Origin: Adhaeribacter aquaticus DSM 16391
GTDB lineage: Bacteria; Bacteroidota; Bacteroidia; Cytophagales; Hymenobacteraceae
Assembly: GCF_000473365.1 (NCBI RefSeq)
Contig: NZ_KI421517.1
Coordinates: 3,552,634-3,616,633, forward strand
DNA length: 64,000 nucleotides
Direction: 5' to 3'
In this document: positions 27,101-30,052 of the stretch, piece after piece
Layout of the letters: every line of letters begins with the position of its first letter
Position numbering within the stretch: the first letter of the stretch is position 1
Notes under the pieces: generated by a model
Seen by the model: only the letters and a program-made list of their open reading frames with translations
Databases searched by the model: none
Told to the model about the DNA's origin: nothing
Translations under genes and position numbers: made by a program

Positions 27101-29011
27101 ATGTCGCGCATTCCTAAAGAAACTGTTGACCAGATAATTGCCCAGGCTGATATTGTAGAAGTGGTTGGTGATTTTGTTTCCTTAAAGAAAAAGGGACAAA
27201 ACATGTGGGCTCCCTGCCCGTTCCACCACGAAAAATCCCCTTCTTTCTCCGTATCGCCGGGCAAAGGAATTTATAAATGCTTTGGTTGCGGTAAGGCTGG
27301 TAATTCCGTGCAGTTTATTATGGACGTTGAGGGTATTGGCTATGTAGAAGCCCTTAAATATTTAGCACGCAAATTTTCTATTGAAATACAGGAAGAAGAA
27401 ACGCCGGAATTAAACCAGGCTCAAAGCGATCGGGAAAGCCAGTATATCCTGTCCAATTTTGCCAAAGAGTATTTTCAGGATGTATTATTAAACCACGAGC
27501 AAGGTAAAAGTATCGGAATGCCTTATTTGCAGGAGCGGGGTTTATCTGTAGCTACCATTAAAAAATTTGAATTGGGTTATAGCCTGGAAGCCTGGGATGG
27601 TCTTACATCTAAAGCTTTAGCGCAAGGGTACCAAAAACAATATTTGGAAAGTACTGGTCTTACCATTTTTAAAGAAGATAAGCAATACGACCGTTTCCGG
27701 GCCCGGGTCATGTTTCCCATTCACAATGTGTCCGGCAGGGTGCTAGGGTTTGGTGGGCGTACCTTAAAATCGAACGATAAAACGCCTAAATATGTAAACT
27801 CACCGGAGTCAGATATTTACCATAAGAGTGATGTGCTGTATGGTCTTTATCAGGCTAAGCAGGCCATCCGGAGCCAGGATTTATGCTACATGGTGGAAGG
27901 CTATCTGGATGTTATTTCCTTAAGCCAGGGCGGGGTGGAGAATGTGGTAGCCTCCTCCGGAACTTCCTTAACTGAAGGCCAGATAAAATTAATTGGGCGC
28001 TACACCAAGAACATAACGGTGCTTTACGATGGTGATGCGGCAGGTATAAAAGCCTCATTGCGCGGAATTGATTTAATTTTAGAAGGAGGCTTAAATGTAA
28101 ACGTGGTGCTTTTTCCGGATAAAGAAGATCCGGATAGCTACATTCGGCGGGTAGGGGATACGGCGTTTAAAAATTATATAAATGCCAACGCCAAAGATTT
28201 CATTTCCTTTAAAACAGAGTTATTATCGCAGGAAGCCCAGCATAACCCGGTTAAAAAAGCAGAAGCCATCCGGGATATTCTGGAAAGTATTGCTAAGGTT
28301 CCGGATTCTATCAAACGCGCTGTTTTTTTTCAGCAATGTGCCACCATTTTTGGCATTGAAGAGCAGGTATTAATAACGGAATATAATAAATTAATAAAAC
28401 AGGAACGGCAAAAGCCAGTAGTTCCGGCAGGTTTTATACCGGCAGAAGAACCAGTAGCAGAAGTTAAGCCAGCAGAAGACGTAACTTCAGATGATGCTAT
28501 TTTATTACACCACGAGCGGGAAGTTATACGGTTATTAGTAAATTATTCGGCTTCCAAATTGCCGGAAGATACTCCTTTTTTACCGTATTTCCTGGAGCAG
28601 TTAGAAGATCTTGAATTTAAGACGCCAATATACAGTCGTCTGTATAATATTTTTAAGGAAGCCGCAGCTTATTCCCCTTTCGTTTCTCCTGACTATTTTA
28701 TAAATCATCCGGATGCCGAAGTTAGGCAAGAGGCTATTAGTTTATTAACGGAACGGTTCGATTTAAGTCCTAACTGGGAAACCCACCAAATTTTTGTACC
28801 CAAAGAGGTAGAGTTATTGCAGTTTGCTGCTGATACGGCCGTGCTTAGGCTTAAATGGCGTAATGTACAGCACATGATCCGGGAAAATATGGAATTATTA
28901 AAAGTAGAAAAAGATCCGGGGGAGGTTACAAAGCAATTAACTATATTAAAGACATTGCAGCAGTACGAAATTGAGATAGGTTCTCAGTTAGGAATTGTAG
29001 TTTCCAGGTAA
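27101..29011 (+). CDS. dnaG: DNA primase
   Basis: This enzyme makes RNA primers for replication. The 636-residue protein has the CHC2 zinc ribbon with Cys39, His42, Cys60 and Cys63. The RNA polymerase domain includes YLQERGLS and RARVMFPIHNVSGRVLGFGGR. The TOPRIM core has VEGYLDVISL and YDGDAAG. The C-terminal region after about 440 is the variable helicase-interaction part, with an Ala/Pro/Glu-rich linker. Length fits the family. It is followed at once, with overlapping bases, by the remains of a potassium channel gene. Confidence 0.97.
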   Translation: MSRIPKETVDQIIAQADIVEVVGDFVSLKKKGQNMWAPCPFHHEKSPSFSVSPGKGIYKCFGCGKAGNSVQFIMDVEGIGYVEALKYLARKFSIEIQEEETPELNQAQSDRESQYILSNFAKEYFQDVLLNHEQGKSIGMPYLQERGLSVATIKKFELGYSLEAWDGLTSKALAQGYQKQYLESTGLTIFKEDKQYDRFRARVMFPIHNVSGRVLGFGGRTLKSNDKTPKYVNSPESDIYHKSDVLYGLYQAKQAIRSQDLCYMVEGYLDVISLSQGGVENVVASSGTSLTEGQIKLIGRYTKNITVLYDGDAAGIKASLRGIDLILEGGLNVNVVLFPDKEDPDSYIRRVGDTAFKNYINANAKDFISFKTELLSQEAQHNPVKKAEAIRDILESIAKVPDSIKRAVFFQQCATIFGIEEQVLITEYNKLIKQERQKPVVPAGFIPAEEPVAEVKPAEDVTSDDAILLHHEREVIRLLVNYSASKLPEDTPFLPYFLEQLEDLEFKTPIYSRLYNIFKEAAAYSPFVSPDYFINHPDAEVRQEAISLLTERFDLSPNWETHQIFVPKEVELLQFAADTAVLRLKWRNVQHMIRENMELLKVEKDPGEVTKQLTILKTLQQYEIEIGSQLGIVVSR

Positions 29012-29448
29012 TATTTCAATACAATAAGTTATTAAAACTTTTAATTGCTCAAGGATTAGCGATCACCAGTATTGTAATAGGTGTTTCGGGATATTTGTGG
29101 ATGGAGGGCTTTACTTTTCTGGAGGCCTATTACATGACTGTGCTTACCATATCTACAGGTAGTTACAAGGAAGTGCATGACCTTACTCCCAGCGGGAAGA
29201 TTTTTAATTCTTTCTATATATTATTTAATCTGGCCACTTTTGCTTATCTGATTACCATCATTAGTTCTTATATTTTTGAAGGGGAATTACGCAATATTTT
29301 TAAAAATTATATGACAGATCAGGATCTTAAAAAATTTACAGGTCATACTATTGTCTGTGGATTTGGCCGAAACGGGAGTAAAGCTTGTCAAGAATCTCGA
29401 TGTTGGAAGAACTTACCTATAAAATTTCAGGGTTTCCCTGTAAAATAA
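29011..29448 (+). pseudogene. Decayed two-helix potassium channel (Ion_trans_2 + truncated TrkA-N)
   Basis: Translation of this frame gives NKLLKLLIAQGLAITSIVIG (first helix), WMEGFTFLEAYYMTVLTIST (pore helix), a second helix (FYILFNLATFAYLITIISSY), then HTIVCGFGRNGSKACQE, the start of a TrkA-N/RCK domain. That layout is the usual channel of about 330 residues in this phylum, but three things are wrong. No ATG, GTG or TTG precedes the first helix, and an ATA stands where the start is expected. The selectivity filter reads TGSY, where T-x-G-Y/F is required. The RCK domain loses homology after CQE and stops 18 codons later, with no continuation in other frames. I read it as a pseudogene. Confidence 0.8.
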
Positions 29449-29752
29449 GCTTTTTTAGACCTTGAAATTAAAAATAATACTAAATCTACTAAAGTATTTA
29501 TATAAAAATATTCTAATTAATAAAAAGGTTGTTGAAATCAATTGAATTAAATAAAAACTAAAAAGGAAGGTATTATTTTTTATATTTTATTTTTTTTATA
29601 ACATTTAACCATTTTTCAGAAATAATAATTATTAAAAAATACATTTTGCCTTGCCAACTAATATATAAACATATCGTAATAACTGATTATAATACAATTT
29701 GCATGGGATATTTTTAAAGCCTTGCCATAAAGTAATCTTAAATTAGAAAACG
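29449..29752. other. AT-rich intergenic region after the channel relic
   Basis: This 304-bp stretch is very AT-rich and has no open frame of note. It should contain the promoter of the small secreted protein at 29753. TACAATTTG near 29693-29701 is one base longer than the TAnnTTTG box. The missing RCK coding sequence of the channel is not found here. Confidence 0.5.
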
Positions 29753-30052
29753 ATGATAAAATTTATAGTAGCAGTTGGTATGGCATTATTGACAACCTCT
29801 GCATTCGCACAAAACGCAACCATTCAAACTAAGACTAAAACTAAAACTAGTGTAAAACAGGGAAGTTCTGTAAATCATGGTACCCGGGTTAGTACAACTG
29901 CCAAAGCTACACCTTCCGGTACACACACTAACAAAGGTGCTGCCGTAAGTGCCACCGCCCGTTCAAACAACGGAGGAGCCACCAGGTCGACAAATACTAG
30001 CTCTAACCGAACCTATCATAAAAACACCACTGTGCGGGTAAAAAATAAATAG
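29753..30052 (+). CDS. Small secreted Thr/Lys/Ser/Asn-rich protein
   Basis: I do not recognise this 99-residue protein. A canonical signal peptide ends SAFAQ (16-20). The mature 79 residues are low-complexity and strongly basic. There is a TKTKTKT run at the start, many Thr, Ser, Asn and Gly residues, and almost no acidic or hydrophobic residues. It is probably disordered and could bind polyanions or the cell surface, but that is inference. It is a single-gene unit with its own terminator, so it is likely real despite its composition. Confidence 0.75.
   Translation: MIKFIVAVGMALLTTSAFAQNATIQTKTKTKTSVKQGSSVNHGTRVSTTAKATPSGTHTNKGAAVSATARSNNGGATRSTNTSSNRTYHKNTTVRVKNK

Follow-up and report, generated by a model that had tools for sequence, protein, structure and literature searches.

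Very probable decay of an RCK-gated potassium channel gene behind dnaG in Adhaeribacter aquaticus

A short reading frame with channel-like features follows dnaG in Adhaeribacter aquaticus DSM 16391, and the question that it raises is whether a potassium channel gene is being lost here or a minimal pore is still being made. The locus lies in a window of 64,000 nucleotides, this being the whole stretch of DNA that was analysed. The original prediction, made from the window alone, was of a channel gene caught in decay, with lesions in its start codon, its selectivity filter, and its RCK domain. Each of these was examined against relatives in the family and in the genus.

Results

Layout of the locus

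Behind dnaG, a stop-free reading frame runs on the plus strand from 28975 to 29448. The features of the locus, with helix and pore helix limits that are approximate and taken from the alignment to relatives, are as follows.

27101..29011, plus strand: dnaG (DNA primase), intact, 636 amino acids, with Pfam domains DNAG_N, Zn_ribbon_DnaG, and Toprim
29009-29011, plus strand: dnaG stop codon TAA, overlapping the position of the lost channel start
29011..29013, plus strand: ATA where the channel start codon is expected (TAATA, against TAATG in the congener G005 and at locus L019)
29011..29394, plus strand: channel remnant, 128 codons, with gap-free homology to the N-terminal part of intact two-helix (2TM) RCK channels
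29029..29100, plus strand: helix 1 (TM1), preserved
29116..29154, plus strand: pore helix, preserved
29155..29166, plus strand: filter TGSY (TVG[FY] or TTGF in most listed relatives)
29200..29277, plus strand: helix 2 (TM2), preserved
29344..29394, plus strand: start of the RCK (TrkA_N) domain, first 17 residues, HTIVCGFGRNGSKACQE, with domain limits taken from the intact protein
29395..29448, plus strand: tail beyond the break, in frame and unrelated, ending in the stop codon TAA
29403..29423, plus strand: LEELTYK, out of frame, a probable scrap of the C-terminal half of the RCK domain (consensus LEELSFE)
29428..29440, no strand: short hairpin CAGGG/CCCTG, weak, terminator-like on the minus strand only

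One such hairpin was found against 0.6 expected in shuffles. The stretch 3' of the remnant (29449-29752) is very AT-rich, with 19% GC against 39% for the window, and beyond it lies a small protein that looks secreted (29753-30052).

Channel identity and distribution in the family

The remnant shares 66 of 128 residues with the protein of congener G005 over a gap-free alignment, and the match between that protein and the window has an E-value of 5e-42; its homology to channels is far beyond chance. Pfam Ion_trans_2 (PF07885) matched the window frame at 35 bits (cut-off 22.5), and neither TrkA_N nor TrkA_C matched it at E-values up to 1. The intact G005 channel, of 340 amino acids, carries all three domains. 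By its sequence, the remnant corresponds to the N-terminal ~128 residues of an MthK-like potassium channel, a type with two helices and an RCK domain. The two helices and the pore helix had been described as well preserved, and the alignment to relatives bears this out.

The family search covered 204 genomes, that of the window included, with a match threshold of E 1e-8. Matches were found in 121 genomes, and in 118 of these the frame is at least 331 amino acids long. The three shorter frames are those of the window (157 amino acids), G071 (180, frameshifted), and G196 (137), the last of which is a weak match (E 3.7e-9) and probably a different small channel. Among the 118, the gene of G072 (333 amino acids; locus L168) is frameshifted some ten residues beyond the filter, and the N-terminal part is absent from its frame; the gene of G071 (locus L167) is frameshifted behind approximately residue 150 and once more close to its C-terminus. 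These two genes may be truly decaying, or the shifts may be read errors. In at least 48 of 111 channel loci, dnaG precedes the channel on the same strand, a floor and not a genome count, as flanks are short, the window is counted three times, and some loci are duplicates. The original prediction had called for a comparison with intact copies behind dnaG in related Hymenobacteraceae, and these are present in G005, Rufibacter, and Hymenobacter, at the same place as the remnant of the window.

Start codon

No usual start codon was said to precede the first helix, with ATA in its place, and this is confirmed. The dnaG stop and the channel ATG share a base in the TAATG of G005 and L019, where the window reads TAATA; an ATGA overlap is seen in Rufibacter psychrotolerans (L052, the same genome as L011) and in two congeneric Rufibacter genomes (L005 and L006). 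No in-frame ATG, GTG, or TTG occurs from the stop before 28975 up to 29095. The first permitted in-frame start is the TTG at 29095, near the end of helix 1, which would give a product of 117 amino acids.

Selectivity filter

Positions 29155-29166 read ACA GGT AGT TAC, that is TGSY, which departs from the TxG[YF] pattern. The window has STGSYKE where relatives have STVGFGE, STTGFEE, STVGYKE, and similar stretches. Filters were compared across the best 80 of 530 confirmed relatives and 30 loci from the family search. The matches listed comprise 121 distinct homologous stretches, with the window counted among them, and 120 fully cover the filter position; the exception is L168, which a frameshift of its own interrupts at that point. 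A glycine precedes the aromatic residue in all 119 of the other covered stretches, serine is found in the window only, and TGSY recurs in none of the 119. The loss of the key glycine thus stands as described. The second filter residue also differs, being glycine in the window in place of valine or threonine.

Two intact second channel copies, L031 (in G032) and L149 (in G096), have the odd filters SPGGY and SGGGY, in which the glycine before the tyrosine is kept. Judged by sequence, these would be better candidates than the window frame for natural non-selective RCK channels, and because both are intact, a changed filter alone is no proof of decay.

RCK domain

The RCK domain had been predicted to end abruptly after CQE. 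Homology to intact relatives does end there, in KACQE (29394), and is followed by 17 codons without similarity and a stop at 29446-29448; the break does not, however, look like a simple stop. About 135 codons are absent after KACQE before the next recognisable residues: 8 bases past the break, LEELTYK is encoded in another frame and resembles the consensus LEELSFE, which stands about 137 positions later in the channel. When the 54-base tail was shuffled with its dinucleotides kept, 2 of 1000 shuffles reached its score, as did 5 of 150 shuffles of a 366-base region, the match being a short one for which the shuffle test is the support. A search for RCK scraps with a family profile recovered the main frame only, and LEELTYK did not stand out (the profile held 99 distinct, hand-picked proteins, with eight loci omitted: three copies of the window, two G005 duplicates, L092, L110, and the distant L032). 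Since a probable piece of the C-terminal half survives out of frame downstream, an internal deletion that shifted the frame is likely. In the simplest reading, a deletion of about 400 bases and loss of the last ~70 codons would have removed the RCK domain.

A moved RCK half or a split gene was also considered, and the genome gave no sign of either. Searched with TrkA_N, the whole genome contained only TrkA above the cut-off, with five weak matches below it, and a search with the RCK part of the G005 channel returned TrkA only (E 0.03).

Losses within the genus

dnaG was found in all eight genomes of the genus, and of the seven other than that of the window, G005 alone has an intact channel. 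Its start overlaps the dnaG stop at the place where the window has ATA; it has TrkA_N and TrkA_C, and the window frame has neither. Behind the dnaG stop of G003 stands ATGAACAGGTTTGCC, with 14 of 15 bases as in G005, equivalent to about five leading codons before the sequence diverges; this start remnant was spotted by eye, without statistics. In G001, G002, G004, G006, and G007, nothing recognisable follows dnaG, and the rest of these genomes gave no match at E 0.01, although absence elsewhere is less sure for G007 because that genome is only 78% complete. A profile search of the 1500 bases behind dnaG in these five genomes and G003 gave nothing convincing (best E 0.14, in G001), and tblastn behind congener dnaG gave matches at chance level only (E 3.2 to 6.7). 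One of the latter, located directly after dnaG in G007, covers 12 residues of the unrelated tail. The stretch TAATATTT, common to the window and G007 behind dnaG, is too short to call.

The dnaG tree pairs G005 with G003 (support 99), a clade of G001, G002, and G007 (98) joins the window (100), and G004 and G006 are probably sisters (78). Given vertical inheritance, this tree needs at least four separate losses of the channel, that of the window being still in progress. The same gene is thus lost repeatedly within one genus with the stages visible: G005 has the whole gene, the window less than half of it, and G003 about five codons, and in the others nothing recognisable is left. Such repeated loss suggests that the channel is dispensable in the genus.

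Other potassium systems

A second channel elsewhere in the genome, for which the original prediction had proposed a search, is present as a 274-amino acid Ion_trans channel with the filter TTVGYGD and an open frame. TrkH and TrkA are encoded side by side, also in open frames. Other Ion_trans_2 matches above the cut-off, one or more per genome, are present in all eight genomes of the genus. A further channel-like match with an in-frame TGA is seen at G005:C1:5382942-5383178 and is possibly another decaying channel. Four congeners (G001, G002, G003, and G007) have a twin-RCK channel frame of ~580 amino acids, which in G001 (L170) gives 563 amino acids from its ATG; in size and layout it is like the 565-amino acid twin-RCK protein of PDB 4gx0. 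No such ~580-amino acid channel was found in the genome of the window. Replacement of the lost channel by the twin-RCK channel was considered and is not a simple account, as G004 and G006 are without both.

Age of the decay

Branch lengths of the channel were compared with those of dnaG on one topology, built from 33 of 48 loci with dnaG in reach, which were hand-picked before the result, and with dnaG trimmed to 347 gap-free columns, some loci containing only part of it. The channel/dnaG ratio is 1.10 for the terminal branch of the window, 1.20 for the whole tree, and 1.88 for G005. Eight terminal branches have a dnaG length of at least 0.13, and among these only one exceeds the value of 1.10; short branches give very noisy ratios, from 0.77 to 26.8. 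Differences at first and second over third codon positions, relative to nine relatives, have a mean ratio of 0.464 in the window, close to the 0.462 of G005 (averaged by hand). For the window-G005 pair, the ratio is 0.526 in the channel against 0.359 in dnaG. From this and the rank of the 1.10, a mild relaxation is not separable from the usual looseness of the channel.

The first 128 codons contain no stop and no frameshift, and their rate is near normal. In the absence of any clear acceleration relative to dnaG, the decay looks recent, as had been proposed. Most of the window branch was probably spent under constraint, which means either that decay is recent or that a short product is still constrained.

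Base composition was also considered. GC at first and third positions is 0.367 and 0.312 in the remnant against 0.520 and 0.398 in dnaG; the first-position value is below all 98 segments of long open reading frames in the window, and the third-position value is at the 15th percentile. The intact G005 copy is likewise lower than its own dnaG (0.438 against 0.553 at first positions and 0.477 against 0.512 at third positions), and composition was set aside as proof of age.

Discussion

The frame behind dnaG is very probably a pseudogene, derived from a gene for a two-helix potassium channel with an RCK gate, with a start codon that overlapped the dnaG stop. A potassium channel gene in decay had been predicted at this place, and the presence of more than one disabling lesion, with intact counterparts at the same place in relatives, supports that prediction. 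Translation would end at the dnaG stop, and any product would at best be a poorly translated, ungated fragment. The gene may be supposed to have been under constraint for most of the window branch and to be dispensable in this genus, which retains another potassium channel and, in the genome of the window, Trk uptake. As a pseudogene the frame is ordinary: a gene of a known channel family on its way to being lost, and not a novel type of pore.

The preservation of both helices and the pore helix, without clear acceleration, would also be expected of a minimal, ungated, non-selective cation pore that is still produced, with translation starting at the ATA or re-initiating at the dnaG stop, and that is useful. 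Passages of PMC9001731 describe the weaver Gly to Ser filter change in GIRK2 as yielding a channel that conducts but is poorly selective, and passages of PMC2268962 deal with re-initiation at non-canonical codons in E. coli, there with mutant initiator tRNA. The same excerpts report that high IF3 inhibits non-canonical starts, those of PMC10158994 that IF3 excludes weak third-base pairs, and AUA as a natural start is not met in the excerpts of either. The frame beyond 29394 is moreover an unrelated tail, congeners have lost the channel gene repeatedly, and no relative among the matches listed has a short form with a TGSY filter. We therefore regard such a pore as quite unlikely. Its most specific form, a natural weaver-like module with TGSY and no RCK gate, re-initiated from ATA and providing a cation leak tied to primase expression, is a similarly doubtful proposal; should the short frame be in use, it would exemplify a channel that has persisted in nature without its gate and without the glycine of its filter.

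Errors of assembly or sequencing that make an intact gene look broken are more improbable again. Two family genomes (G071 and G072) do have frameshifted copies that are maybe read errors, and in the filter ACAGGTAGTTAC differs from ACAGTAGGTTAC, one possible coding of TVGY, by a single displaced G. One lesion taken singly may possibly reflect an assembly error. Small read errors, however, cannot delete about 400 bases and the 3' end, and the start change is a substitution. In addition, dnaG is intact, two genes downstream of the remnant align with relatives almost from end to end, the assembly of 4 contigs is 99.3% complete, and no other place in it was found to contain the missing RCK part. 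There is hardly any likelihood that the cell uses the 117-amino acid product from the TTG at 29095 as a small membrane protein with a single helix and the pore loop: TTG can serve as a start and no stop interrupts the frame, but this product lacks helix 1, and the family search listed no comparable short frame besides the frameshifted G071 and the weak match in G196. The pseudogene reading is preferred over these alternatives.

A literature search on RCK channels in Bacteroidetes returned no paper that matched the full query. The weaver change in GIRK2 affects what we take to be the glycine before the tyrosine, the same position as the serine in the window. In the passages of PMC9001731 it is a Gly to Ser change in the filter with loss of potassium selectivity, as the filter of the window is also changed from Gly to Ser; GIRK2 weaver is, however, a disease allele in a whole mammalian channel, and the window differs at the second filter residue too. 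That natural channels with altered filters exist is illustrated by the non-selective channel of Tsukamurella paurometabola, with its proline-rich filter, which differs from the window frame in that, according to the excerpts of PMC5052707, it was purified, was functional, and has a solved structure. A close parallel is MthK, the calcium-gated 2TM-RCK potassium channel (PDB 1lnq), which aligns with residues 14-332 of the intact G005 protein (E 1.6e-28), although the top PDB match of that protein by E-value is the twin-RCK TrkA domain protein 4gx5 (1e-34) and not MthK. Compared with MthK, the window remnant is without a start codon, the filter glycine, and almost the whole RCK domain; its helices, pore helix, and RCK start align with those of MthK (E 1.2e-6 for 1lnq and 2.6e-7 for 8djb, the best MthK entry).
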